Shown: piece by piece, positions 2,921 through 18,511 of the stretch
How positions within the stretch are numbered: the first letter of the stretch is position 1
How the letters are laid out: each line of letters begins with the position of its first letter
Source of the DNA: Elusimicrobia bacterium GWA2_51_34
GTDB taxonomy: Bacteria; Elusimicrobiota; Elusimicrobia; Elusimicrobiales; UBA9959
Direction: 5' to 3'
Assembly: GCA_001799565.1 (NCBI GenBank)
Contig: MGTS01000007.1
Coordinates: 1-51,713, forward strand
Length of the DNA: 51,713 nucleotides
Position numbers and translations under genes: made by a program
The notes under the pieces: generated by a model
Database searches by the model: none
The model's input: the letters and a program-made list of their open reading frames with translations, nothing else
Told to the model about the DNA's origin: nothing

Positions 2921-3128
2921 GATGGATGGCGCGGTTTTGGCGGGGGGGCGGTTCATACAATCCAAATGAGAAAGTTTTATCAATGTCGGCCACCGGACCG
3001 GGTTTTTCCGATACAATCTAAAAAATAAAAAACGGGAACTCGCGGCGGAAATTAATCCAAAAAATACGTTAAATATTGCTTTCCGGCCCAAAACAACACG
3101 ACATGAGGTTGTCGCGGTCGTCTGCTAG

Positions 3129-3345
3129 TATATTAAGGTGACAAATCGGTTAAATGAAGCGGTAACGCGATATTGCAGGCAATTTCCCGGTGACTTTATG
3201 TTTCAGCTTATGCGCCAGGAAACCGCAAACTTGACATCGCAATCTGCGATGTCAAGTTCCCCTGGCGGCCGCCGGGTGCGTCCTTATGCCTTCACGGCCA
3301 AATAAAAGTGCGCGGAATATTTGAGCGCAATGAGTTTAAAAGGGA
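3129..3345 (+). pseudogene. ORF6N-domain gene remnant with internal deletion
   Basis: Read in the frame that contains AAC at 3228, the DNA encodes pieces of an ORF6N protein: NRLNEAV, then FPGDFMFQL, then GGRRVRPYAFTAK. The intact copy at 3992-4537 and the truncated copy at 3476-3814 show the same order (LNQAVKR, FPEDFMFRL, APCAFTQNG). Right after AFTAK the frame stops, and the next bases match the C-terminal end of the intact copy (its FTAKEKRAKYLS). The middle and C-terminal half therefore appear to have been lost by a deletion between two TTCACGGC(C/T)AAA-like stretches. An in-frame stop at 3126 and absence of the N-terminus confirm decay. Confidence 0.75.
3228..3258. repeat. Perfect 14-bp inverted repeat, 3-nt centre, in ORF6N remnant
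   Basis: AACTTGACATCGCA (3228-3241) is followed by ATC and then its exact reverse complement (3245-3258). It sits at the same protein position (S-Q codons) as the inverted repeats in the two other ORF6N genes. Confidence 0.9.
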
Positions 3346-3475
3346 ACAATCCGTACGGTGCCACCGCGCCCCAAGCGCGACCGGCAACCATTGAAGGACC
3401 CTTTGCAAAATGTCGCCGCTCTTGCAAAGAAATTCGCCCAGGCGGCCTAAAAGGCGAGGTTTATTAAGGAATATT

Positions 3476-3814
3476 ATGCAAAATATTATTCAACCTGGTA
3501 CCGTTGAGAAAAGGATCTGTCTGATACGGGGGCAAAAAGTGATTTTGGACTGCGACCTGGCCGCTATTTATGGAGTACCTACCAGACGTCTTAATGAGCA
3601 GGTCAAGCGCAATAAGGATAAGTTTCCGGAAGATTTTGCTTTTCGGCTTACTCAACGTGAGGTCGCAGATTTGGCCGCGCAAACCGTGAAAACGGTCCGG
3701 CCGGTGATGCGGTCGCAATTTGCGACCGCATATAAAAGGAATCTCCGGTTTCCTCCGTACGCATTCACGGAGCATGGGGCCGTTATGGCGGCCAATGTGT
3801 TGAATATTAAATAA
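3476..3814 (+). CDS. ORF6N-domain protein, C-terminally truncated
   Basis: Phage-type DNA-binding regulator domain (ORF6N, of the KilA-N/Bro family context). The ATG at 3476 is chosen because AAGGA lies 7 nt upstream; upstream in-frame codons look non-native. The protein has IRGQKVILDCDLAAIYGV, then LNEQVKRN, FPEDFAFRL, RSQFATAY and PYAFTEHG. These are the same blocks as the intact neighbour at 3992. It stops after NVLNIK, at the point where full-length homologues continue with a helical region, so about 60 residues are missing. The stop codon overlaps the ATG of a cas3-like fragment, indicating that a recombination joined the two. The remaining 112 residues may still fold and bind DNA. Confidence 0.7.
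   Translation: MQNIIQPGTVEKRICLIRGQKVILDCDLAAIYGVPTRRLNEQVKRNKDKFPEDFAFRLTQREVADLAAQTVKTVRPVMRSQFATAYKRNLRFPPYAFTEHGAVMAANVLNIK
3707..3731. repeat. Perfect 11-bp inverted repeat inside truncated ORF6N gene
   Basis: ATGCGGTCGCA (3707-3717), centre ATT, then TGCGACCGCAT (3721-3731). It encodes the RSQFATA stretch. The arm sequence differs from those in the neighbouring ORF6N genes, yet pairing is complete. Confidence 0.9.
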
Positions 3815-3991: not shown

Positions 3992-4537
3992 ATGAAAGAA
4001 ATTGTGCCGGTGGAAATAATAGAAAGCAAAATACTTCTGTTGCGCGGCCGCAAGGTAATGCTGGACCGCGACTTGGCGGCGCTCTACGGTGTGGCAACAA
4101 AAGCGCTCAACCAGGCCGTGAAACGGAAGGCAAGACGTTTCCCGGAAGACTTTATGTTCCGTCTGACAAAGGCCGAAATGCGTAATTGGAAGTCACAGTT
4201 TGTGACTTCCAATTCCAGGGTTAAAATGGGGCTTCGCAAAGCTCCATGCGCTTTTACGCAAAACGGCATATCCATGCTCTCAAGTGTTTTAAACAGCGAA
4301 CGGGCGGTAAACGTGAATATCCAGATAATGCGCACTTTCACCCGTCTTATGGAAATCATCTCCGCACATAAAGATTTGGCGCGTCGGCTTGATAAACTGG
4401 AAAGCAAATACGACACGCAGTTTAAAATAGTCTTTGACGTGATCCGGGAATTAATGGCCGTGCCGGAAAAGCCCAAAAAACGCATCGGTTTCACGGCTAA
4501 AGAAAAGCGCGCGAAATATTTGAGTCCGGTGTGTTAA
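3992..4537 (+). CDS. ORF6N-domain protein, intact
   Basis: A 181-residue putative DNA-binding protein. The ORF6N domain covers about residues 5-100 (LRGRKVMLDRDLAALYGV, LNQAVKRK, FPEDFMFRL, KSQFVTSN, APCAFTQNG, SSVLNSERAV). A helical region follows near 105-155 (VNIQIMRTFTRLMEI, then HKDLARRLDKLE), then a basic tail. Such proteins occur in phages and as stand-alone genes in many bacterial genomes; DNA binding is inferred from the family and the partner is unknown. The start at 3992 has AGGA 10 nt upstream. It lies upstream of the NYN nuclease and the cas operon and could regulate either; the sequence does not prove this. Confidence 0.8.
   Translation: MKEIVPVEIIESKILLLRGRKVMLDRDLAALYGVATKALNQAVKRKARRFPEDFMFRLTKAEMRNWKSQFVTSNSRVKMGLRKAPCAFTQNGISMLSSVLNSERAVNVNIQIMRTFTRLMEIISAHKDLARRLDKLESKYDTQFKIVFDVIRELMAVPEKPKKRIGFTAKEKRAKYLSPVC
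4184..4214. repeat. Perfect 14-bp inverted repeat inside intact ORF6N gene
   Basis: AATTGGAAGTCACA (4184-4197), centre GTT, then TGTGACTTCCAATT (4201-4214). It encodes NWKSQFVTSN. Same location and 3-nt centre as in the other ORF6N copies, with different arm sequence. Confidence 0.92.
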
Positions 4538-4607
4538 AGAGGCATAATATAACCAGGGGGGAAATTGAAAATAGCCGGAAATGCCGATTTTAAGCCAAAA
4601 TCAAAGT

Positions 4608-4643
4608 GACACACCCTTGTCGCGTTGATGTGGTAGGATATTT
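4608..4643 (+). promoter_or_regulatory. 36-bp element, copy 1, before NYN gene
   Basis: Bases 4608-4643 are identical to 5243-5278. The block runs from GACACACCCTTGTCGCG to GGTAGGATATTT and ends 3 nt before the NYN start codon, where no Shine-Dalgarno is seen. The TAGGATATTT end could be part of a promoter -10 region for a leaderless or near-leaderless message. In this copy the flanking inverted repeat is imperfect. Confidence 0.6.
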
Positions 4644-4646
4644 GTT

Positions 4647-5120
4647 ATGAACAATTATGCTTTTATAGACAGCCAAAATCTTAACCTGGCAGTCCAGAAT
4701 ATGGGTTGGAGGCTGGATTTTTTGAAATTCAGGGTCTACCTTAAAGACAAGTATCATGTTTCCAAAGCTTTTTTATTTATTGGGTATATCCCGCAAAACC
4801 AGTCGTTGTATTCTAACCTTCAACAGCAGGGTTTTATCCTTATATTCAAGCCAACCCTGGCTCTTCCTGGCGGTGGCGTTAAGGGGAATGTGGACGCGGA
4901 ACTTGTCCTTCATTCAATGATTGAATTCCTAAACTATGAAAAAGCCGTCATTGTTACGAGTGACGGGGATTTTTTCTGTCTTGCTGATTATTTGGTCCGC
5001 AAGGATAAATTGTTGAAATTGCTCATTCCCGACCGGAACAAATATTCCTCGCTTTTTAGAAAGCTGATGCCGCATATTGTTTTTATGAACGATTTAAGGG
5101 GAAAACTGGAGTATAAATGA
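4647..5120 (+). CDS. NYN-domain (LabA/DUF88-type, PIN-like) putative ribonuclease
   Basis: A 157-residue single-domain protein of the NYN group, PIN-like folds expected to be metal-dependent RNases. Acidic residues are where the family has them: D8 in FIDSQNL, D83 in GNVDAELVL, and D106/D108 in VTSDGDF. There is no signal peptide or membrane segment, so it is cytoplasmic. The gene is monocistronic between the ORF6N gene and cas3, and shares its 36-bp upstream element with the region before cas3. That suggests shared control with the CRISPR operon. Its RNA substrate is unknown. A role in defence or in transcript control is inference. Confidence 0.85.
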   Translation: MNNYAFIDSQNLNLAVQNMGWRLDFLKFRVYLKDKYHVSKAFLFIGYIPQNQSLYSNLQQQGFILIFKPTLALPGGGVKGNVDAELVLHSMIEFLNYEKAVIVTSDGDFFCLADYLVRKDKLLKLLIPDRNKYSSLFRKLMPHIVFMNDLRGKLEYK

Positions 5121-5234: not shown

Positions 5235-5278
5235 ATCAACGCGACACACCCTTGTCGCGTTGATGTGGTAGGATATTT
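5235..5278 (+). promoter_or_regulatory. 36-bp element, copy 2, with perfect 12-bp palindrome, before cas3
   Basis: ATCAACGCGACA (5235-5246), loop CACCCT, then TGTCGCGTTGAT (5253-5264) is a perfect inverted repeat. Bases 5243-5278 repeat the element at 4608-4643 exactly. It lies about 120 nt before cas3. The palindrome looks like an operator for a dimeric regulator; the nearby ORF6N or BRO-N proteins are obvious candidates, but this is inference. Confidence 0.6.
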
Positions 5279-5397: not shown

Positions 5398-8127
5398 ATG
5401 TCAGAGAAAAAATATTACGCGCACACCAAAACTAATCCTGACGGCACCCCCGCGCCCCAAAGTGCCTGGCAGCTGCTGGATGAACATTTATGTAACATCT
5501 GGGCCAAGATCGGAAAAAAAGACGCTAGTTCTTGGCACCCGCTTATCCTTCACATGCTGGATGTTGCCGCTGTGGCAGAAGCGGTTCTGGAACGGGAGCC
5601 CGCTGCCGCCAAAACAACCATTGCGGCATGCCTTGGGATGAGTTGGAGTGATGCCCGCCCATGGTTGTTACTGGTCCTGTCGTGTCATGACTTGGGGAAA
5701 GCATGTCCAGGTTTCCAATCCAAATGGGCGGATGCGCCACAAACAGGTCTTAAAATGCCAGCCAGCCCGGACACCAGAATCAACCATGCTTTTGTGAGCC
5801 AAATTGCGTTGTCTGCTCTGCTGCAAGAAAAAGGATGGCCGCAGGATTTAGCGGATTTGCTTGGGGACGCTGTCGGCTGCCATCATGGGAATAGAGCATC
5901 TCCCACTATTTTGGGCCGCCTTAGCGGAAATAGAAGGGCTATAGGCGATAATGGTTGGCCGGAAGCCCGCCGTACCATGCTGGAGGCGATATTTCAGGTT
6001 TTTAAACCGGACCACCCGCCTGCCAAACAAACTCTTTCCGGTCCGGAATTTATGTCGTTGGCCGGGCTTACAAGCTTTTCCGATTGGATAGCCTCTGACG
6101 AAAATCACTTCCCATTCGGAAATATAGAGGATTGTTTAAACCTCCCGGCATGGTTCAAAAAACGCAGATTAATCGCGGAACAGACCCTTGATGAAATAGG
6201 CTGGCTGCCGCGCACCCCGCTTTCAACTGTGTCTAAATCATTTAAACAGGCCTTGGGTTTTGCACCGCGCCCTTTACAAAAAGCCGTCGTGCAAACATTA
6301 AAAAAACTTAAATCACCGGCTATTCTGCTGGTGGAAGCTCCTATGGGAGAGGGAAAGACTGAGGCCGCATTCTATGCGCATCTGGAATTGCAACGCCGTT
6401 TCGGCCACAGGGGATTGTATGTGGCTATGCCCACAAAAGCAACCGGCAATGCCATGTTCGGGAGAACCCTTGAGTTTTTGTGCCGCCAGGGAATTCAGCG
6501 CAGGCTGGATATGCAATTACTGCATGGCTCAGTCCTGTCTAACGATACATTCAAAAATCTTCGCCTTTCCGGAGTTGGTGATCCGGGCGATGGCGGCGAA
6601 GTCCGCGCCGCTGAATGGTTCACGTCCAAAAAGAAGGCTCTCCTGTCTGAATACGGCGTGGGTACAGTAGACCAGGCTTTGATGCCTATCCTGCCAGTAC
6701 GCCACAATTTTATGCGTTTCTGGGGGCTTGCCAATCGCGTGGTCATTTTTGACGAAATCCACGCCTATGACGCCTACACGGGCACGCTTTTGGTTCATCT
6801 GTTGCGCTGGCTTCTAGCAATGGGTTCTTCGGTGGTGCTACTTTCGGCTACGCTGTCTCCATCTTTCCGGCGCAAGCTGGCTAAAGTTGTAAATGTCGAA
6901 CTGCCTGAGCAGGAGAAAAAATACCCGCGGCTTTCTGTGTTTCGTCACGGCGCGGCAAAGGTTGAGCAGGTGCATTTTAAAGCGGAACAGTCACTCCACC
7001 GTGCGCTGCGGCTGGTTGCTATCCCGGCAGACCTTGCAGATATACAGGCTGCGCTGGAGCGGCATCTTCCCAATGGCGGAATGGGGCTGGTTTTGGTCAA
7101 CACGGTACAGCGGGCGCAGGACTTATATCGTCTTTTCCCTGACGGCGTGGTTGTGGAATGCGATGGGCAGCGTGTCGGGAAACGGCTTCCCGACGGGACG
7201 GAAATATTACTCTTTCACGCGCGTTTTCCCGCCGACAGCAGGCAGAAACGCGAGCAGCAGGTTTTGGAATTATTTAACAAAAGTGGAATACGGAAGGGTA
7301 GAAAAATCCTTATCGCCACGCAGGTCGCCGAGCAAAGCCTTGACTTGGATTTTGACTTGATCGTAACCGACCTTGCGCCGATTGACCTCATTCTTCAGCG
7401 GGCCGGGCGTTTATGGCGTCACGTGCGCGGGCCTCGGCCCGTACCTGAACCTACGCTTATAATTGCGGGGCTTGCGGGGGAAGAGCCGCCGTCGTTTGAA
7501 AAGCCATTATGGTGGAGCGCCATATATCGTGAAGACCTGTTGTTGCGTACTTGGGGCCTGCTCCGTACACGCAAGAACCTGGAACTGCCGGATGATATTG
7601 ATGTTTTGGTGCAGGCGGTATATGAAGGACAGGCGGATGTCCCAGAATCGTTGCGGGAACGCTTGGAGAAGGCCGGAATTAATGAAGAGGGAGAGGTTCT
7701 TGCCGAGCAATGCCAGGCCAACCAGGCCATAATCGGATTTCCCGATGACGCATCCTGGAATCAGCCGGAAAAATTTGTCCTTTATGATGAGGATGAGCCA
7801 GGTGTTCATAAAACCTTAATGGCCCAAACCCGGCTCGGCGGCACTTCTGCTGTCGCAATACCTGTATTCCCGGATGAGAATTTCAACCAAGTCCCGTTGT
7901 CAGAGGCTCAGGCGGAAGCCAGTTTTCTTCGGGCCTTGAGCCTGTCACGCAAGGGAGTTGTCGCAAAACTTCAAAGCAGTGGAGTCCCGGAAAGTTGGAA
8001 GAAATCACCGCTTTTGCGTAACTGTTTCCCGCTGGTTCTGGATCAGAATGGGCGCTGGGCTGTGGATTCCTCCGTGCGTCTTGATGAAGATTTGGGACTT
8101 GTTTATGAAACAAAGGAGACCAAATGA
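5398..8127 (+). CDS. cas3: Type I-E Cas3 nuclease-helicase
   Basis: Effector that is recruited by Cascade to nick and degrade target DNA while translocating. The N-terminal HD nuclease domain has H52, the H97-D98 pair in SCHDLGK, and a GCHHGN motif. The SF2 helicase follows: MGEGKT Walker A near residues 316-321, DEIH at 452-455, LLSATLS, QVAEQSLDLDFD and QRAGRLWRH (motifs V and VI). A C-terminal domain completes 909 residues, a normal full-length size. All catalytic motifs are present, so the enzyme should be active. It is first in the cas operon and its stop overlaps the cse1 start (ATGA). A fragment of a second cas3 start lies at 3814. Confidence 0.95.
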   Translation: MSEKKYYAHTKTNPDGTPAPQSAWQLLDEHLCNIWAKIGKKDASSWHPLILHMLDVAAVAEAVLEREPAAAKTTIAACLGMSWSDARPWLLLVLSCHDLGKACPGFQSKWADAPQTGLKMPASPDTRINHAFVSQIALSALLQEKGWPQDLADLLGDAVGCHHGNRASPTILGRLSGNRRAIGDNGWPEARRTMLEAIFQVFKPDHPPAKQTLSGPEFMSLAGLTSFSDWIASDENHFPFGNIEDCLNLPAWFKKRRLIAEQTLDEIGWLPRTPLSTVSKSFKQALGFAPRPLQKAVVQTLKKLKSPAILLVEAPMGEGKTEAAFYAHLELQRRFGHRGLYVAMPTKATGNAMFGRTLEFLCRQGIQRRLDMQLLHGSVLSNDTFKNLRLSGVGDPGDGGEVRAAEWFTSKKKALLSEYGVGTVDQALMPILPVRHNFMRFWGLANRVVIFDEIHAYDAYTGTLLVHLLRWLLAMGSSVVLLSATLSPSFRRKLAKVVNVELPEQEKKYPRLSVFRHGAAKVEQVHFKAEQSLHRALRLVAIPADLADIQAALERHLPNGGMGLVLVNTVQRAQDLYRLFPDGVVVECDGQRVGKRLPDGTEILLFHARFPADSRQKREQQVLELFNKSGIRKGRKILIATQVAEQSLDLDFDLIVTDLAPIDLILQRAGRLWRHVRGPRPVPEPTLIIAGLAGEEPPSFEKPLWWSAIYREDLLLRTWGLLRTRKNLELPDDIDVLVQAVYEGQADVPESLRERLEKAGINEEGEVLAEQCQANQAIIGFPDDASWNQPEKFVLYDEDEPGVHKTLMAQTRLGGTSAVAIPVFPDENFNQVPLSEAQAEASFLRALSLSRKGVVAKLQSSGVPESWKKSPLLRNCFPLVLDQNGRWAVDSSVRLDEDLGLVYETKETK

Positions 8128-9641
8128 GCCGATTTAATCTTATTGATGAAAAATGGATCCCTGTACGGTTCCTGAACGGGACCCGCAACGAGTTGGGAAT
8201 TATGGATACGCTCCTGCGCTCCAGCGAGATTGCGGCCATAGAAGACCAGTCCCCGCTGGTTGTTGCGGCGCTGCATCGCTTCTTGCTGGCGGTGCTTTAC
8301 CGCGCGCTGGAAGGCCCGACGGACATAGACCAGGCCAAAAATCTGTTTAAGACAGGTCTGCCGAAAGAAAAGATAAAGACTTATCTGGAGAAATGGCGCA
8401 ATAGATTCTGGTTGTTTGATGAAAAGTATCCTTTCGGACAAAATCCGCATATCCCAGAAGATGAGATTGAACCATGGACAAAACTGACAGCTGAATATAA
8501 TGCCCCGTCCAATAAAGTCCTTTTTGATCATACCGATGCAAAAAAACCTGGTGAGATGGAGTTAAAAACGTGCGCTCGTTGTTTGCTCTCTACAATGAAT
8601 TTCTCAATTAGCGGGGGCCGGGGTTATTACCCGTCCCCGTCTTCAAACGCAATAATGTGTATACCATTAGGCCGGGAGTTGCATGAGACACTCTGTTATA
8701 GTCTGGTTCCGTACCCAAACCGCAATGTGATGGCTGGTGATTCGGCTTTGTGGGAGCGTGAACCGGAAAAACTTCCACTTAAAAATTCAAAACGTATGGC
8801 GTCTGGCTATGCGGACCTCTACACATGGCAGTCCAGGATGATACTTCTTCAGGATGTGCAGGCACCCGGTGTGGAAACCATGCGGTTTGTTTCCGGGCAG
8901 GGTTTTGATAATTCCTCAAAAAATCATGACCCTATGCAGGCATATAGGCTCAGTGAAATTCATGGCGTCTTGCCTGTCCAGTTCCGAGAAGATAAAGGCG
9001 TGTGGCGTGATTTTTATTCTTTACTGCCTGATGATTCCGGGTTTGCCCCTTTGACGATTCAAAATGCTATTAAATTGGCTGGAAGTAAGGTTGATAAGAT
9101 GCCGAAGTCGGTTTTGGCTCTTGGTTTGCGATATGAACCACCAAGCGCGAATGTAAGCTTTTGGCGTATGGAACATTTTGTCCTGCCGTCGGAGTTGACG
9201 GGAGATCGTTTTATTCGGACTGAAATCCACCAGCTTCTTGAAGATGCGAACCACGTTCAAAAAGTCCTGTGGATGGCGTGTTCCTGTTTCGCGCAATTTC
9301 TTTTAAGCAGAGGGGAAAGAAAGCCGGATAAAAGAGATGTAAGTGAATTCATAAAACAAATTCCAGCAATTCCACGCTATTGGTCCATACTGGAGTCCCA
9401 CTTCCATGAAGTATTAGGAGACTATGCGGCCGACTGTGACCCCGATGAAATCCGTTGTCGGTGGCTGAACCATGTGCGGGATACTTTAAAGATGGTTTGG
9501 GAACAATATGCCGCTTCGGTTTTAGAGGGAGATGCCTGGGCAATCCGCGCGCTTGTAAAAGCCGAAGGCGCGGTGCGGGATAAAGTGAAAGAATTGGATG
9601 GCGAAATGGAAAAATGCAAAAAGCAGGAGGTAAATCAATGA
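8124..9641 (+). CDS. cse1: Cascade large subunit Cse1 (Cas8e/CasA)
   Basis: Large subunit of the type I-E surveillance complex, which recognises the PAM and recruits Cas3. At 505 residues it is the usual length. The N-terminus FNLIDEKWIPVRFLNG is characteristic of the family. A CARC pair near residue 150 and a following GGRGYYPSP loop lie in the region that in relatives binds zinc or contacts the PAM. The four-helix C-terminal bundle is predicted from about residue 370. The start overlaps the cas3 stop by 4 nt and the stop overlaps the cse2 start by 4 nt, so the three genes are translationally coupled. Confidence 0.93.
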   Translation: MSRFNLIDEKWIPVRFLNGTRNELGIMDTLLRSSEIAAIEDQSPLVVAALHRFLLAVLYRALEGPTDIDQAKNLFKTGLPKEKIKTYLEKWRNRFWLFDEKYPFGQNPHIPEDEIEPWTKLTAEYNAPSNKVLFDHTDAKKPGEMELKTCARCLLSTMNFSISGGRGYYPSPSSNAIMCIPLGRELHETLCYSLVPYPNRNVMAGDSALWEREPEKLPLKNSKRMASGYADLYTWQSRMILLQDVQAPGVETMRFVSGQGFDNSSKNHDPMQAYRLSEIHGVLPVQFREDKGVWRDFYSLLPDDSGFAPLTIQNAIKLAGSKVDKMPKSVLALGLRYEPPSANVSFWRMEHFVLPSELTGDRFIRTEIHQLLEDANHVQKVLWMACSCFAQFLLSRGERKPDKRDVSEFIKQIPAIPRYWSILESHFHEVLGDYAADCDPDEIRCRWLNHVRDTLKMVWEQYAASVLEGDAWAIRALVKAEGAVRDKVKELDGEMEKCKKQEVNQ

Positions 9642-10132
9642 GTGGTTTTATTGTGTGGCTGGAAAAATTGAATGCTGAAGGCAGAAAAGCCAGGGCCGTA
9701 TTGCGCCGCAGTCTGGCTTTTGAGCCGGGAGCGTATGTCCCCGCATATCCTTATGTTGAACCGTTTCTAAAAGACGAAGAGAATCAGTGGAGGAGGGAAA
9801 TGTATTATCTTGTTGCTGGTTTATGGGCGGCGCATTGGCAGGAAGGGAAGATCGGTGTTCCGCAGTCTATTGGAGCAGCTTGCGCAAAACTAACAAATTC
9901 CGCAAGCACAGAGCGCCGTTTTATAACCCTCTTGGATGCCAACGAGGACCAGTTGGCGTACCGACTGCGCCAGATGATGGCGCTGCTTAAAGAACAACCC
10001 ATCAACTATGAATCGCTGCTAACCGGGTTATTGTATTGGAATGACGACCGGAAGCGCACCCAGAATACCTGGGCCCGCGACTTCTATCGGAATGTGAGTG
10101 ATACAACAGAACTTAACACACAGGAGAAATAA
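9638..10132 (+). CDS. cse2: Cascade small subunit Cse2 (CasB)
   Basis: Small alpha-helical subunit, usually present as a dimer along the Cascade belly, stabilising the R-loop. The start is placed at ATG 9638, which overlaps the cse1 stop (ATGA) and follows AGGAGG at a good distance; an upstream in-frame start would lie inside cse1. The 164-residue protein has family-type blocks: a VLRRSLAFEPGA segment, a LVAGLWAAH helix, LRQMMALL and a C-terminal WARDFY. Confidence 0.9.
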   Translation: MSGFIVWLEKLNAEGRKARAVLRRSLAFEPGAYVPAYPYVEPFLKDEENQWRREMYYLVAGLWAAHWQEGKIGVPQSIGAACAKLTNSASTERRFITLLDANEDQLAYRLRQMMALLKEQPINYESLLTGLLYWNDDRKRTQNTWARDFYRNVSDTTELNTQEK

Positions 10133-10136
10133 ACAA

Positions 10137-11297
10137 ATGAAAACCTTAATCGAAATCCACGCATTGCAGAACTTCGCTCCCTCAAACCTGAACAGGGATG
10201 ACTCCGGGGCTCCCAAAGACGCCTTTTTCGGAGGCACTCGCCGCGCCCGCATCTCCAGCCAATGCCTAAAACGCGCGGTGCGAGGGTATTTTGAGCAGAA
10301 AAAAGATGAAGGCTTTTTTAAGTCTGATGACCTTGCTGTTCGGACTAAGCGACTATATCAGGCCATCGCCGATTTACTTAAGGGAAAACGTGACGGCTCT
10401 GAAGTCCTGGCCAAGGCGGAAATTGCGTTGTCTTATGTTAAGCTTAAAGCGGCGGAAGGGGGTAAAACACAATACTTGCTTTTCCTTGGACAAAAAGAAA
10501 TAGCGGCATTAGCCGAGGCTATCAATAAATACTGGGATCAAATTATACCTGTCAAAGAAGAAACCGGAGAAAATGGGAGGAAGAAAGGAAATAAGAAAAA
10601 GGAAGCCGCCGGTGGCGCTCCAAAAGAAGTTCAAGAGCAAATCGGGGCCATTTTTAATGGCGGGAAGGCCGTTGATGTGGCGCTTTTCGGGCGTATGCTT
10701 GCGGATATGCCGGAAAAAAACCAGAATGCCGCCTGCCAGGTGGCACACGCTATTTCAACCCATTCCGTTGAAAGAGAGTTCGACTTCTATACCGCAGTCG
10801 ACGACCTTAAGCCGGAGGACAGCTCCGGCGCTGATATGATGGGCACGGTTGAATTTAATTCCGCCTGTTTCTACCGTTATGCAGTGTTGGATTGGGGAAA
10901 ATTAGTGGAAAATCTTCAAGACGATAAAGAGCTGGCCGCCAGGGGACTGCGCGCTTTCCTGGAAGGGTTTGTGGTTGCCGAACCTACCGGGAAACAGAAT
11001 ACCTTCGCGGCCCACAACCCACCGGAGTTTGTGGCTGTTTCCGTGCGCCGCAACACCGCGCCCCGCAACCTGGCTAATGCTTTTGAAACTGCCCTTTTCG
11101 CGCGGAAAGGCGAGTCGATAACGGGGAAATCGGCGGAAAAACTTATTGAAAAAGCTAAGGCTTTAAGAACAGTTTACGGTGGAGAAGAAAAAACATTCAT
11201 CCTAAACCTTACTAATGCCAAGTCGGATGACCTGGGAACAACTCTGCCGGCATTGAAAGAGCTTCTTGATAAGGCTTGTTCGGCCGCACAGGAGTGA
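10137..11297 (+). CDS. cas7e: Cascade backbone Cas7e (Cse4/CasC)
   Basis: Backbone subunit; six copies normally coat the crRNA spacer. The ATG at 10137 is preferred over an upstream frame start because it has AGGAG 11 nt upstream and gives the canonical N-terminus (IEIHALQNFAPSNLNRDD, then GGTRRARISSQCLKRA). At 386 residues it is slightly long; a Lys/Gly-rich insert near residues 140-165 (ENGRKKGNKKKEAAGG) is likely a surface loop. The RAMP core includes ADMMGTVEFNSACFYRYA and KQNTFAAHNPP. It lies between cse2 and cas5e with only short gaps. Confidence 0.94.
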   Translation: MKTLIEIHALQNFAPSNLNRDDSGAPKDAFFGGTRRARISSQCLKRAVRGYFEQKKDEGFFKSDDLAVRTKRLYQAIADLLKGKRDGSEVLAKAEIALSYVKLKAAEGGKTQYLLFLGQKEIAALAEAINKYWDQIIPVKEETGENGRKKGNKKKEAAGGAPKEVQEQIGAIFNGGKAVDVALFGRMLADMPEKNQNAACQVAHAISTHSVEREFDFYTAVDDLKPEDSSGADMMGTVEFNSACFYRYAVLDWGKLVENLQDDKELAARGLRAFLEGFVVAEPTGKQNTFAAHNPPEFVAVSVRRNTAPRNLANAFETALFARKGESITGKSAEKLIEKAKALRTVYGGEEKTFILNLTNAKSDDLGTTLPALKELLDKACSAAQE

Positions 11298-11300
11298 CCT

Positions 11301-11981
11301 ATGACTACATTGCTGCTTAAGTTGGCAGGCCCCATGCAGTCGTGGGGCACTACCAGCCGTTTTGATCAGCGCGATACCGGCAAAGAGCCCAGCAAGTCCG
11401 GAGTTATAGGGCTCCTGGCCGCCGCCATGGGAATTGACCAGGAAAACTGGACAGAACTTGAGCCTTTAACGTGCTTGTCCATGGGTGTAAGGCATGACCG
11501 CCCCGGCGTTCCCAAGTATGATTATCAGACGGCACAGCATATTATTTCTGCGGACCGCGCAAAAATCCATGAGACGGCTGTCACAAAGAGAGACTATATT
11601 GCTGACGCCGCTTTTTTGGTTGGGTTTGAGGGAGGGGATTCTGGTTTATTGCTACGGCTTAATGCGGCGTTACGCAATCCCGTCTGGCCGCCTGCATTAG
11701 GGCGCAAATCCTATGTGCCATCGGAGCCGGTATGGATTGAAAACGGGGTACAGAACGCTCCGCTGAAGGATGTCTTAATGGGATGGCCCTGGATTACTTC
11801 AGAGCGGAAATGGGAAAAGCGGCCAGAGAAATTATTGTTTTCTTTTGAGTCCGCTGACGGCTCCGGAGTCCTTAAGATGGACCAGCCGTTATCCTCTTTT
11901 GCCGAGAGGCGTTTTGGCGCCAGGTTTGTCCGTTCCGAATGGATACCGTTCCCGCAGGAGGCCTCCAATGTTTCTGCATAA
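11301..11981 (+). CDS. cas5e: Cascade Cas5e (CasD)
   Basis: RAMP-fold subunit that caps the 5' handle of the crRNA. The 226-residue protein starts with LLLKLAGPMQSWGTTSRFDQRDTG-type blocks. It continues with PSKSGVIGLLAAAMG and AERRFGARFVRSEW near the C-terminus, typical of type I-E Cas5. GGAG lies just before the ATG. The last 14 nt overlap the start of cas6e. Confidence 0.92.
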   Translation: MTTLLLKLAGPMQSWGTTSRFDQRDTGKEPSKSGVIGLLAAAMGIDQENWTELEPLTCLSMGVRHDRPGVPKYDYQTAQHIISADRAKIHETAVTKRDYIADAAFLVGFEGGDSGLLLRLNAALRNPVWPPALGRKSYVPSEPVWIENGVQNAPLKDVLMGWPWITSERKWEKRPEKLLFSFESADGSGVLKMDQPLSSFAERRFGARFVRSEWIPFPQEASNVSA

Positions 11982-12648
11982 AATACATCTCAACCCGCGA
12001 AGCAGGGAAGCAAGACGGGATATTGCAGATCCGTATGAACTGCATTCCACTCTTTGCCGCGCGTTTTCAACTGCTGACCGCAAATGTCCAGAAGGTGAAT
12101 TTTTATGGCGGCTTGAGCCGGAAGCGGATTCCAATGGGAACCCCCGCATTTTAATCCAAAGCCGGTCGCTTCCTGACTGGTCGCGCATGGGGTTGAACGA
12201 CTGGCTGGCTGAAACGCCTGCCGACGGTATTAATATTGCTGAGCACTTAAAACTTAACTCCCTGAAGTCTGGACAACTGTTCCGGTTCCGTCTGCGCGCA
12301 AACCCAACTGTTACCCGCAACAGTAAGCGTTTTGGGCTACTTCGTTTGCCAGAACAGGAATTATGGATAGATCGTAAAGGACGCGAACAACATGGTTTTG
12401 CTCTGCCGTATAGCGTGTCTCCGGACCTCACAGAACAGGCTCAGCGTCGGGTTATTGTCCGTATTTACCAGGAGAGGATGTTGGCCGGAAGGAGAAGGAA
12501 TGGGGCTGAAATCCGTGTTTTTTCAGTTTTATATGACGGAATGTTAACTGTTGTTGATGTGGATAAATTCCGGGCCGCTTTACAGAACGGAATAGGGCAT
12601 GCGAAAGCCATGGGGCTTGGTTTATTGTCGGTAGCTCCGGTTTTATAA
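11968..12648 (+). CDS. cas6e: crRNA endoribonuclease Cas6e (Cse3/CasE)
   Basis: Cuts pre-crRNA at the base of the repeat hairpin and stays bound to the 3' handle. The start at 11968 (CAGGAGG 7 nt upstream) gives the canonical MFLHKIHLNP N-terminus; the longer upstream frame runs inside cas5e. A family-type catalytic His is visible in YELHSTLCRAFS near residue 27. The C-terminal glycine-rich loop GIGHAKAMGLGLLSV is intact. Length is 226 residues. The matching substrate is the array at 14801 with an 18-nt palindromic repeat centre. Confidence 0.92.
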   Translation: MFLHKIHLNPRSREARRDIADPYELHSTLCRAFSTADRKCPEGEFLWRLEPEADSNGNPRILIQSRSLPDWSRMGLNDWLAETPADGINIAEHLKLNSLKSGQLFRFRLRANPTVTRNSKRFGLLRLPEQELWIDRKGREQHGFALPYSVSPDLTEQAQRRVIVRIYQERMLAGRRRNGAEIRVFSVLYDGMLTVVDVDKFRAALQNGIGHAKAMGLGLLSVAPVL

Positions 12649-12676
12649 TTCAAGTCTCTGAAAAGGAGATTATGGT

Positions 12677-13509
12677 ATGGATGCAAAAATGGCTGTTTTT
12701 AAAGGGAAAAAAATAAGGAGAATCCTTCATAATAATGAGTGGTGGTTTTCAATTGTAGATGTGGTCTCGGCCCTGACGGAGAGTTTTAATCCGCGTGATT
12801 ATTGGTATAAAATGAAAATTAGGGTAAAAACGGAGGAGAGGTCCGAGTTGTCGACATTTTGTCTACAACTGAAATTGGAATCAGCGGACGGTAAAAAATA
12901 CGAAACCGACTGCGCCAATACAGAGGGGATATTCCGGATTATACAGTCTATTTCCTCTCCCAAAGCCGAACCGTTCAAACGATGGCTGGCAAAAGTAGGC
13001 TATGAACGAGTGCAGGAAATTGAAGACCCTGAACTGGCAGCCAAAAGAACCAGGTTGCTCTATAAACTTAAAGGGTATTCTGAAAGCTGGATAGAAAAGC
13101 GGATGCGCGGAATTGCTATTCGCGAAGAATTGACGGATGAATGGCAAAAGCGGGGCGTAAAAAAACAAAAAGAATATGAAATTCTTACTGCCGAAATTTC
13201 TAAAGCCACTTTCGGTGTGACGCCTAGCCAATATAAAAAACTGAAGGGATTGGAACGGCAAAATTTGCGCGACCATATGGATGACTTGGAGTTGATTTTC
13301 AATATGCTTGGCGAGCGAGTGACAACCGAAATTTCCCAGCAAGAGAAGCCGGATACATTTATGAAAAATAAAAAGGTGGCGGAGAGAGGCGGAAGCGTTG
13401 CCGGAAATGCCAGAAAACAAACAGAAAAAGAAATCGGCAGGAGCGTAGTTTCCCCAAAAAATTATGTGCAAACTCCGGAAAATCGTAAGAAGTTGGAAAG
13501 GAAGAAACA

Positions 13510-13513
<4 letters not shown>
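12677..13513 (+). CDS. BRO-N domain protein inside the cas operon
   Basis: A 278-residue BRO family protein, a DNA-binding antirepressor-like group best known from phages and baculoviruses. BRO-N covers residues 1-100: VFKGKKIRRILHNNEWWFS, VVSALTESFNPRDYWYKMK, ELSTFCLQLKLES, ANTEGIFRIIQSI, KRWLAKVGYERVQEIEDPELA. A conserved C-terminal region follows (GYSESWIEKRMRGIAIREELTDEW in shorter pieces), then a basic tail. AGGAG precedes the ATG. Its stop overlaps the cas1 start (ATGA), so it is co-translated with cas1. It is not a standard type I-E gene. Its role, perhaps regulating adaptation or the operon, is inference. Confidence 0.88.
12846..12870. repeat. 11-bp inverted repeat (one mismatch) inside BRO-N gene
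   Basis: AGTTGTCGACA (12846-12856), centre TTT, then TGTCTACAACT (12860-12870). One position does not pair. The ACA-TTT-TGT core and 3-nt centre match the design of the ORF6N-gene palindromes. It encodes ELSTFCLQL in the DNA-binding domain. Confidence 0.8.
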
Positions 13514-14707
<1,194 letters not shown>

Positions 14708-14800
14708 GTTCTTTGACAATTTGGTAGGCCTTAAAATCGGCTACCGGACGATTTTAGGCTTACAAAGCGTTTATAGGGCATTTTAAGCGCAAATAGAAGT
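14708..14800 (+). promoter_or_regulatory. CRISPR leader
   Basis: A 93-nt AT-rich stretch between the cas2 stop and the first repeat. It has a TTGACA box at 14713-14718 and an AAAATCG/CGATTTT inverted pair (14733-14739 with 14749-14755). It is the expected site of array promoter and integration signals. The absence of repeats before it and the presence of cas2 fix the array orientation, with newest spacers near 14.83 kb. Confidence 0.75.
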
Positions 14801-17800
14801 ATGTTCCCCACACGTGTGGGGATGAACCGGCTTTTAAGAACAGCCACGCGCCACCACCTTTATGTTCCCCACACGTGTGGGGATGAACCGCCCGCGACCT
14901 TATAAAAAAAAACCGTTGCGCGATGTTCCCCACACGTGTGGGGATGAACCGAGAACCCGCCGTAATGCAGGCTCTCTTTTTTTATGTTCCCCACACGTGT
15001 GGGGATGAACCGGGTGGCCTTGCAGAAATAATTGAAGCCCGACAATGTTCCCCACACGTGTGGGGATGAACCGGCATACCTGTAGCTCGGACGTGGCCGC
15101 GCAAAATGTTCCCCACACGTGTGGGGATGAACCGGAGATAAAAATGAAATTCCGTGACGATATGATATGTTCCCCACACGTGTGGGGATGAACCGTATAT
15201 ATATTGTGCAAACTCCCCCCCTGCCCAATGTTCCCCACACGTGTGGGGATGAACCTTATCATTTGAAAGGTCAGATTCCAGAGTTTTCATGTTCCCCACA
15301 CGTGTGGGGATGAACCGATGCTCATCAGTAACGGCAAACGGCCGCTTAGATGTTCCCCACACGTGTGGGGATGAACCGAGAGGGAAGAATGAACGGACCG
15401 AAACAAATACATGTTCCCCACACGTGTGGGGATGAACCGCGGGCTAGAAAACTCTGGCAACTCGCCGAACTATGTTCCCCACACGTGTGGGGATGAACCG
15501 TTCGTGATGAAATGATGGTTGAGTTGCATAAAATGTTCCCCACACGTGTGGGGATGAACCGTCTGTTGTTATTCAGGATTTGCTTTGGAATGAATGTTCC
15601 CCACACGTGTGGGGATGAACCGACTATTTTACTTCTTCTCTTCCGTGGCCTCAGATGTTCCCCACACGTGTGGGGATGAACCGCCACGCCGGAGAAATCA
15701 GCGCGGCGGGTAATTATGTTCCCCACACGTGTGGGGATGAACCGGCCAGCTATTATATGACTCCCTGGCCGTGCCGATGTTCCCCACACGTGTGGGGATG
15801 AACCGGTCAGCAGGATAGTCCGACTGACCTTATCGACATGTTCCCCACACGTGTGGGGATGAACCGCGCTGAATATTGACCCGGCTGGTTCTCTGGAGAT
15901 GTTCCCCACACGTGTGGGGATGAACCGTTAGTACCTATTCTTGTTGAAGAGGTTGTCCCATGTTCCCCACACGTGTGGGGATGAACCGTAATAAATGCCG
16001 ACGACAGCGTAGGATTAGCGATGTTCCCCACACGTGTGGGGATGAACCGATGTTTCCGGCGTTGTGCGCCTTTCGTGGGCTATGTTCCCCACACGTGTGG
16101 GGATGAACCGTTATACAACGCTGGCCAGCCATTTTTTTCACTATGTTCCCCACACGTGTGGGGATGAACCGACCGTGCGCTCGCACGTCGTGCCCGCCAA
16201 TCCATGTTCCCCACACGTGTGGGGATGAACCGAAGCCGGGCGCTGTCGTCCCTACCGTCTCCCAATGTTCCCCACACGTGTGGGGATGAACCGACTTTTG
16301 AGAACAGCCACGCGCCACCACCTTTATGTTCCCCACACGTGTGGGGATGAACCGTCGAAACGGTCTTTTAAGCGTTCAGTTCGGAGATGTTCCCCACACG
16401 TGTGGGGATGAACCGAAATATCGAACCCGCCGGGCACTATTTTTGCGATGTTCCCCACACGTGTGGGGATGAACCGGTAGCGGCGGCGGCGGCGGCGAAA
16501 AAATGTTCCCCACACGTGTGGGGATGAACCGCGCCGGGTCCGACGCAAATATCCTACCCATATATGTTCCCCACACGTGTGGGGATGAACCGATGATTCA
16601 CGCTGACGATACTCATCGTAACGAATGTTCCCCACACGTGTGGGGATGAACCGTTAGTACCCATTATGTGTGAAGAGGTTGTCCCATGTTCCCCACACGT
16701 GTGGGGATGAACCGCCTTAACTGGCGCCTTTTCAGACGCGCCCTGGATGTTCCCCACACGTGTGGGGATGAACCGAGTCGAACCGCTCGCCGCTAAATCG
16801 TTCGTGCATGTTCCCCACACGTGTGGGGATGAACCGACCGCCACACACGCCGCGCCGTTCAAAATTTCATGTTCCCCACACGTGTGGGGATGAACCGTAA
16901 TCACCCAGAGAATGAGCTTCCCAACCGGTATGTTCCCCACACGTGTGGGGATGAACCGCCACGCGAGCGCGCGGACTCCGTTTGTTCGTTATGTTCCCCA
17001 CACGTGTGGGGATGAACCGGCCCGCGCAAAACAATAACAACGAAAATTCGCATGTTCCCCACACGTGTGGGGATGAACCGCGGCATTTACAAAGTGCTGA
17101 TAGTCGCCTAGTATGTTCCCCACACGTGTGGGGATGAACCGAATAATTCCCATAACATCAGTCTCACCTTCTAATGTTCCCCACACGTGTGGGGATGAAC
17201 CGGCTTCATGCAGGGCTATGCTTGTGCCGTTTATATGTTCCCCACACGTGTGGGGATGAACCGCCCTATGATGGCGGGCTTCCTCACGCCGGAGAATGTT
17301 CCCCACACGTGTGGGGATGAACCGACCGTGCGTTCGCACGTCGTGCCTGCCAATCCATGTTCCCCACACGTGTGGGGATGAACCGCCACGCCGGAGAAAT
17401 CAACGATACCGGCAATTATGTTCCCCACACGTGTGGGGATGAACCGTTTCCGCACCATCTCCATGGAAAGACTTTTGAATGTTCCCCACACGTGTGGGGA
17501 TGAACCGACTTTTAAGAACAGCCACGCGCCACCACCTTTATGTTCCCCACACGTGTGGGGATGAACCGCCGACGGGGGGGGTCCGGCCCGGCCTCGGGCC
17601 ATGTTCCCCACACGTGTGGGGATGAACCGGTGCAGCCGGCGGGAACCTTCACGGTACAGGCATGTTCCCCACACGTGTGGGGATGAACCGGGATATTATG
17701 CGTAATGAAAAACGGGGCCTCTATGTTCCCCACACGTGTGGGGATGAACCGACCGTATGCTCCACGCTGGACATCGGTGCGGAATGTTCCCCACACGTGT

Positions 17801-18479
17801 GGGGATGAACCGGTGGATCCGCCGCGGGTTAAGATATGCACAATATGTTCCCCACACGTGTGGGGATGAACCGCGCGCTCCGTACGCTGATAATCGGCAA
17901 CTTGAATGTTCCCCACACGTGTGGGGATGAACCGGGGTTGTGTTGCTATGGATGCGTCCTGTATACATGTTCCCCACACGTGTGGGGATGAACCGAGGTA
18001 GGCGGTGATGTGTACGTCAATGCCGGTATGTTCCCCACACGTGTGGGGATGAACCGTAATCGGGGTTCAGTCGTCCAATACTGTTAAAATGTTCCCCACA
18101 CGTGTGGGGATGAACCGGCGACTGCACGCTTAAGCGCGTTTACCATCACATGTTCCCCACACGTGTGGGGATGAACCGCATCAGGTGATACCAATTATGT
18201 CACCCCATGTTCCCCACACGTGTGGGGATGAACCGAAAAAATAACTTTTTCGGCTATGGTCAGGAAAATGTTCCCCACACGTGTGGGGATGAACCGGGAA
18301 AAATAACTTTTTCGGCCATGGTTAGGAAATGTTCCCCACACGTGTGGGGATGAACCGGTGTGTCAAGGATTCCATGTATAAGAAAAACTATGTTCCCCAC
18401 ACGTGTGGGGATGAACCGTGAAAAAAACGCTGTGCGGGATGTCGGATTGCATGTTCCCCACACGTGTGGGGATGAACCG
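14801..18479 (+). CRISPR. Type I-E CRISPR array, 61 repeats and 60 spacers
   Basis: The 29-nt repeat begins ATGTTCCCCACACG and ends GGGGATGAACCG; first copy 14801-14829, last 18451-18479. Hand count gives 61 repeats and 60 spacers. All intervals are 61 nt (32-nt spacers) except the spacer at 16477-16502 (26 nt) and the one at 18179-18206 (28 nt). The centre TCCCCACACGTGTGGGGA is a perfect 18-nt palindrome. All repeats agree except the one at 15228, whose last base is T instead of G. Several spacers are near-copies of others (see findings). The conserved repeats, full cas gene set and large spacer number suggest an active system. Confidence 0.98.
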
Positions 18480-18511
18480 CGTTTGCAAAAAAAGGATATT
18501 TATTTGCTGAT

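Follow-up and report, generated by a model that had tools for sequence, protein, structure and literature searches.

Why does a BRO-N gene stand between cas6e and cas1 in a type I-E CRISPR-Cas operon, and does it serve that operon in particular? We approached this question in a 51,713-nucleotide stretch of DNA from Elusimicrobia bacterium GWA2_51_34 (the window) and in the genomes carrying relatives of the gene, here called BRO.

The BRO-N gene and its operon

The window carries a complete type I-E system in the order cas3, cse1, cse2, cas7, cas5, cas6e, BRO-N, cas1, cas2, array. NCBIfam models identified Cas3, Cse1, Cse2, Cas7, Cas5, Cas1e, and Cas2e, and Pfam identified Cas6e. The features of the operon are as follows.

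5398 to 8127, forward strand: cas3, HD and helicase (PF18019, E value = 4.3e-43)
8124 to 11981, forward strand: cse1, cse2, cas7, and cas5, the Cascade genes (NCBIfam)
11968 to 12648, forward strand: cas6e (PF08798, E value = 3.8e-50)
12664 to 12668, forward strand: AGGAG, ribosome-binding site of BRO-N (from the sequence)
12677 to 13513, forward strand: BRO-N gene, predicted DdrC-like fold (PF02498; phrog_15286; AF2 model, pLDDT 86; DdrC match, Foldseek E value = 2.6e-6, VIA Z = 13.8)
13510 to 13513, forward strand: ATGA, overlap of the BRO-N stop and the cas1 start (from the sequence; also in four sister loci)
13510 to 14433, forward strand: cas1e (TIGR03638, E value = 4e-112)
14411 to 14707, forward strand: cas2e (TIGR01873, E value = 1.8e-33)
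14708 to 14800, forward strand: CRISPR leader, similar among sister loci regardless of BRO type (leader comparison)
14801 to 18481, forward strand: CRISPR array with 61 exact repeat cores, which span 14803 to 18453

The BRO-N reading frame is intact, starts with ATG, and encodes 278 amino acids. Residues 12 to 106 matched Pfam Bro-N (E value = 6.7e-15), and the domain score of 55.9 bits against a gathering cut-off of 25.6 places the protein in PF02498; phrog_15286 matched it over its full length (E value = 3.7e-95). The stop codon TGA lies inside ATGACA, and the only gap flanking the gene is a 28-bp intergenic space on its 5' side. The sequence and the Pfam and PHROG matches thus bear out an earlier note on this DNA, which had described a BRO-N gene between cas6e and cas1 with its own AGGAG and an ATGA overlap with cas1. 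We found no partner reading frame of the two-gene toxin-antitoxin type at the locus, where a single gene is flanked by cas6e and cas1, and we set aside a classical two-gene toxin-antitoxin system because BRO is one gene. A second copy in the same genome (L174, G000:C14:121877-122710) is 70% identical to the window copy and lies outside recognized defense operons, adjoining V-type ATPase-like and DnaJ-like genes as judged by eye.

Retention and recurrence of BRO

Next, we looked at how the arrangement fared in relatives. Among 101 relatives, four other loci encode a Cas1e that is 89 to 92% identical to that of the window, and all four carry BRO directly 5' of cas1. The ATGA overlap is common to all five close type I-E loci (the window plus the four sisters), the BRO frames are intact, and dN/dS values of 0.06 to 0.21, taken from sister pairs that were alignable and whose dS was not saturated, indicate strong purifying selection. 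In two sister loci, BRO, cas1, cas2, and the leader stay joined, while their Cascade genes are, in detail, unrelated to the others (about 24 to 53% identity). We also observed that Cascade halves were exchanged among sister genomes around a constant BRO-cas1-cas2-leader block (L093 to L096 and L168 to L171), and the sister comparison placed one DNA homology boundary inside BRO, near window position 12911. A more distant Cas1e locus of the phylum (G233, 68%) is without BRO.

Outside the phylum, 5 of 28 Desulfobacterota Cas1e loci carry BRO, and one further locus (L144) holds a BRO relic next to intact cas1 and cas2, which shows that BRO can be lost. The same counts led us to reject BRO as a core cas gene of type I-E, and the five sister loci together with the recurrence in other phyla rule out a one-time chance insertion. 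The earlier note had proposed to search other genomes for BRO-N between cas6e and cas1, and the arrangement was found both in the sisters and in other phyla. Loss of the gene in close relatives, which the note would have counted against its reading, was not seen: all five close loci keep BRO. Its suggestion of a retained role gained support from the five intact, overlapping copies, from the low dN/dS values, and from the recurrent place of the gene before cas1 or cas4 across phyla and subtypes.

The cas6e-cas1 slot has other occupants. In Desulfobacterota type I-E loci it elsewhere holds a Fic, RhuM-Fic, DUF1016, S23, DUF433 plus DUF5615, or addiction-antidote gene, with RhuM-Fic filling it in L157, and the slot is a hotspot in L140, L149, L151, L153, L156, and L157. 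BRO would then be interchangeable there with Fic, RhuM-Fic, DUF1016, S23, and toxin-antitoxin genes, an argument from the company a gene keeps and hence one of guilt by position.

To place BRO more broadly, we scanned species genomes for homologs and obtained at least 568 relatives, and we analyzed the neighbors of the best 80 of these, which show 64 to 77% identity, come from many phyla, and are a best-match sample rather than a random one. Defense labels came from HMM matches to representatives and from BLAST searches against those few representatives; L089 is only about 25% identical to the I-C references, and its subtype is uncertain. Among the best 80 homologs, 41 were inside defense operons and 39 had no recognized defense neighbor, and for this reason defense may not be the core function of the family. 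The embedded copies lay in CRISPR loci of type I-E (7), type I-C or I-C-like (16), type I-F (1), and type I-G (1) and in restriction-type operons, namely, SNF2/PLD-helicase with type IIG (6), type III restriction-modification (4), and type I restriction-modification (6). Where the downstream gene was known, 36 of 40 embedded copies were co-directional with it; an overlap or a space of at most 4 bp was found in 23 of these 40, versus 8 of 39 copies with no recognized defense neighbor.

Pooling the best-80 loci with those of the sisters, the Desulfobacterota, and the plasmids gave 34 CRISPR-linked copies, of which 30 lay between effector and adaptation genes. The four exceptions lie 5' of cas3 (L017 and L066), after cas2-3 (L016), and after the type I-G cas3 (L074). 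The complete plasmid pACLO of a cultured Arcobacter cloacae strain carries cas4-BRO-cas1b-cas2 in a type I-B system, and Geobacter argillaceus has the BRO arrangement in type I-C. Two Chlorohelix plasmids (L179 and L180) carry BRO after parA-parB, a typical plasmid-maintenance position. Because relatives sit in restriction-modification operons too, BRO is not strictly a CRISPR gene, and it looks like neither a dedicated CRISPR adaptation cofactor nor a CRISPR-specific regulator. Among the open-access papers searched, we found none joining Bro-N with type I-E systems or defense islands.

Cassette exchange, leader, and promoter palindrome

On the BRO tree, the I-E-linked copies required at least 9 changes and the I-C-linked copies at least 10. 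The window BRO clustered with a type III restriction-modification-linked copy of Patescibacteria, a type IIG-linked copy of Falkowbacteria, and one sister I-E copy, apart from the other three sister I-E copies, a placement that is due in part to mosaicism. The mosaic segment is the following.

12767 to 12901, forward strand: variable predicted recognition cassette, codons about 31 to 75 (DNA identity to L095; AU tests)

Compared with L095, the window gene is 95% identical at the DNA level over codons 1 to 15, falls to 53, 31, and 24% within codons 31 to 75, and past codon 75 is back at 77 to 97%, mostly 80 to 97%, over most of the gene. The window, L095, L014, and L011 have bodies that are 92 to 95% identical and N domains that are just 39 to 54% identical. 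L096, L014, and the second copy of the window genome (L174) share one N type on other bodies. Trees of the N domain and of the body rejected each other's clades (AU P values = 5.7e-5 and 8.5e-5, for sets chosen with the identities already known, a selection that the test takes no account of). In the structure model the cassette spans a helix (residues 39 to 54), a second helix (58 to 61), and a strand (63 to 68), and by analogy it may correspond to a recognition helix and wing. A comparison by eye of the upstream 60 bp revealed no obvious operator common to each N type.

The earlier note had proposed that BRO might act at the leader or at the palindrome at 5235 to 5264, and it had placed two ORF6N genes just upstream of cas3. 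The elements concerned are these.

3129 to 3296: third ORF6N, a remnant
3464 to 3814, forward strand: ORF6N gene 1, short (PF10543, E value = 2.5e-29)
3992 to 4537, forward strand: ORF6N gene 2 (PF10543, E value = 2.3e-30)
4647 to 5120, forward strand: NYN-domain gene separating the ORF6N genes from cas3 (PF01936, E value = 1.1e-9)
5235 to 5264, forward strand: palindrome with the box CGACA-N6-TGTCG (5242 to 5257), cas3 promoter region (genome count and contexts)

The leader is similar across the sister loci although their BRO cassettes are of three unrelated types, and the BRO family also occurs in restriction-modification operons that have neither leader nor spacers; action at the leader is thus not borne out. 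The palindrome is not BRO specific either, because it is a genome-wide promoter box that is kept in sister loci beside different BRO types. The genome contains 24 exact copies of the box, compared with 2 of the control. Many genomes of the family show a similar enrichment, which is missing from the sister family. Within the window it occurs at 5242 to 5257, at 3099 to 3114, and, with one mismatch, at 4607 to 4622. A -10-like TGCTAT usually follows the box, pointing at the gene. Its neighbors include recA, radC, rmuC, a DnaQ-like exonuclease, ORF6N genes, and cas3, together with three DUF1016 nucleases, a DUF559/MTES_1575-type nuclease, and Y1-type transposases. The box is likely to belong to a damage or defense regulon, in which it would drive cas3 as well, and damage may induce the CRISPR operon. 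We rejected LexA as the reader of the box, since a search of the genome gave neither a LexA DNA-binding domain nor an S24 peptidase domain above cut-off.

Both ORF6N genes are present upstream of cas3, but with the NYN gene in between. ORF6N genes also lie 5' of cas3 in sister loci (L170, L171, and L173), even where Cascade has been swapped; they are often truncated (L169 and L171), and BRO differs from them in this.

Structural likeness and competing explanations

An AlphaFold model of BRO-N (AF2, pLDDT 86) had as its best whole-length structural match DdrC of Deinococcus radiodurans (PDB 8u0g, 7udi, and 7qvb; Foldseek E value = 2.6e-6, VIA Z = 13.8). The alignment covered 217 residues at about 12% identity with an rmsd of 10.7, and the relative placement of the domains differs. 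As modeled, both proteins would combine an N-terminal DNA-binding-type domain with a helical body over almost the whole length. DdrC binds at nicks and breaks in DNA, and its PDB titles speak of DNA binding and of a damage response. Unlike DdrC, BRO is embedded in defense operons and has a swapping cassette, and the similarity is at the level of fold only: a PDB sequence search with the BRO family profile gave no match, DdrC included, at E values up to 1. Further matches of the modeled N-terminal domain were to the DNA-binding folds of Ski/Dachshund and MBP1. We regarded low-Z matches between Cas1 and the helical body (Z = 2.8) as noise.

We also compared BRO with the closest known systems. 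Phage antirepressor Ant and other BRO-N proteins (PF02498; phrog_130, phrog_2011, and phrog_5060) have the N-terminal BRO-N domain in common with it, but the Ant families match that part alone, whereas phrog_15286, the full-length family, has no assigned function and is contained in few phage records. Pfam found Bro-N only, with no KilAC or other Ant C-terminal domain and no enzymatic signature or domain, and BRO was rejected as an Ant protein. Escherichia coli DinD is of similar length and weakly similar in its C-terminal part (24% over 133 amino acids; BLASTP E value = 5e-4 in a single comparison confined to the C-terminal half). The hhalign score was not significant (E value = 0.016, probability 2.8%) and DinD belongs to another family, PHROG 8036, so we did not assign BRO to DinD. 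RhuM, Fic, and PrrC-type orphan genes embedded in restriction-modification operons have been proposed as further defense layers (PMC3710099); BRO resembles them as an orphan gene in defense operons, but their folds are unrelated to it and it has no predicted enzymatic domain. CreTA, a CRISPR-regulated toxin-antitoxin RNA pair requiring Cascade and a CreA guide (PMC10097628 and PMC12737573), offers an analogy as a cas-associated extra module that guards its system; unlike it, BRO is a protein and is found outside CRISPR loci too. In phage ICP1, Bro-N and Rha genes lie beside the CRISPR-Cas or odn locus, so that a BRO-N-type gene adjoins CRISPR-Cas or a replacement nuclease, and N-domain swapping in RepA changes specificity (PMC8263062). 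The ICP1 Bro-N gene differs from BRO in that it belongs to a phage, has a KilAC domain, is transcribed divergently, and lies outside the cas operon (PMC8263062).

Several explanations can be set against these data. Regulation of the cas operon, or a role in adaptation at the leader or the promoter palindrome, would fit the BRO-N domain of phage antirepressors, the co-translation with cas1, and the preference of CRISPR-linked copies for the effector-adaptation junction; yet the leader and box remain constant while the cassette changes, the box is genome wide, and homologs sit in operons that have no leader, and we consider this improbable, indeed the least probable of the explanations weighed here. 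A break-binding cofactor that, like DdrC, binds nicks or ends produced by DNA-cleaving defense and protects, tethers, or channels them (in CRISPR, to Cas1-Cas2) seems unlikely as well. The structural match speaks for it, as do the facts that all clearly identified host systems cut DNA and that BRO mostly adjoins nuclease or integrase genes, but a lesion binder should have no need of an exchanging recognition segment, stand-alone copies lie beside ordinary genes, unrelated toxin-like genes use the slot too, and the likeness to DdrC is one of fold at about 12% identity. We give equally little credence to a near-neutral passenger; in this view BRO would be a mobile orphan that operons tolerate at their module boundaries, where insertions are least harmful. 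The spread of the family over many phyla at 64 to 77% identity (best 80 of at least 568), the several orphan families at one junction, the L144 relic, and the stand-alone copies agree with it; the purifying selection, the five intact sister frames, and the conserved ATGA overlap do not, and cassette swapping on a conserved body is unexpected for neutral DNA.

We observed recurrence of position, coupling to the next gene, purifying selection, repeated refilling of the slot, and exchange of the cassette on a conserved body. The explanation we tentatively prefer, without holding it to be probable outright, is that BRO is a portable accessory or guard module of DNA-cleaving defense with exchangeable recognition. 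BRO would be a member of a BRO-N/DdrC-fold family that is widespread, moves horizontally, and docks in DNA-cleaving defense operons, mostly at the junction of effector and adaptation or nuclease genes and often co-translated with the next gene. Its N-terminal winged-helix-like domain would use the swapped helix and strand to bind DNA, its conserved helical body would dimerize and act, and the whole could be a self-contained accessory or guard of the second-line defense or addiction type. Somewhat more doubtful is the wider proposal that one BRO family is a specificity-bearing accessory common to unrelated immune systems (CRISPR types I-B, I-C, I-E, I-F, and I-G and restriction types I, III, and IIG), forming a second, protein-guided recognition layer or a guard.

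If so, a single portable accessory gene would link adaptive and innate DNA-cutting defenses, and guard-like genes would use the effector-adaptation junction of cas operons as a docking slot. The shuffled cassette offers a direct experimental handle on function, and both pACLO of Arcobacter cloacae and Geobacter argillaceus carry the arrangement.
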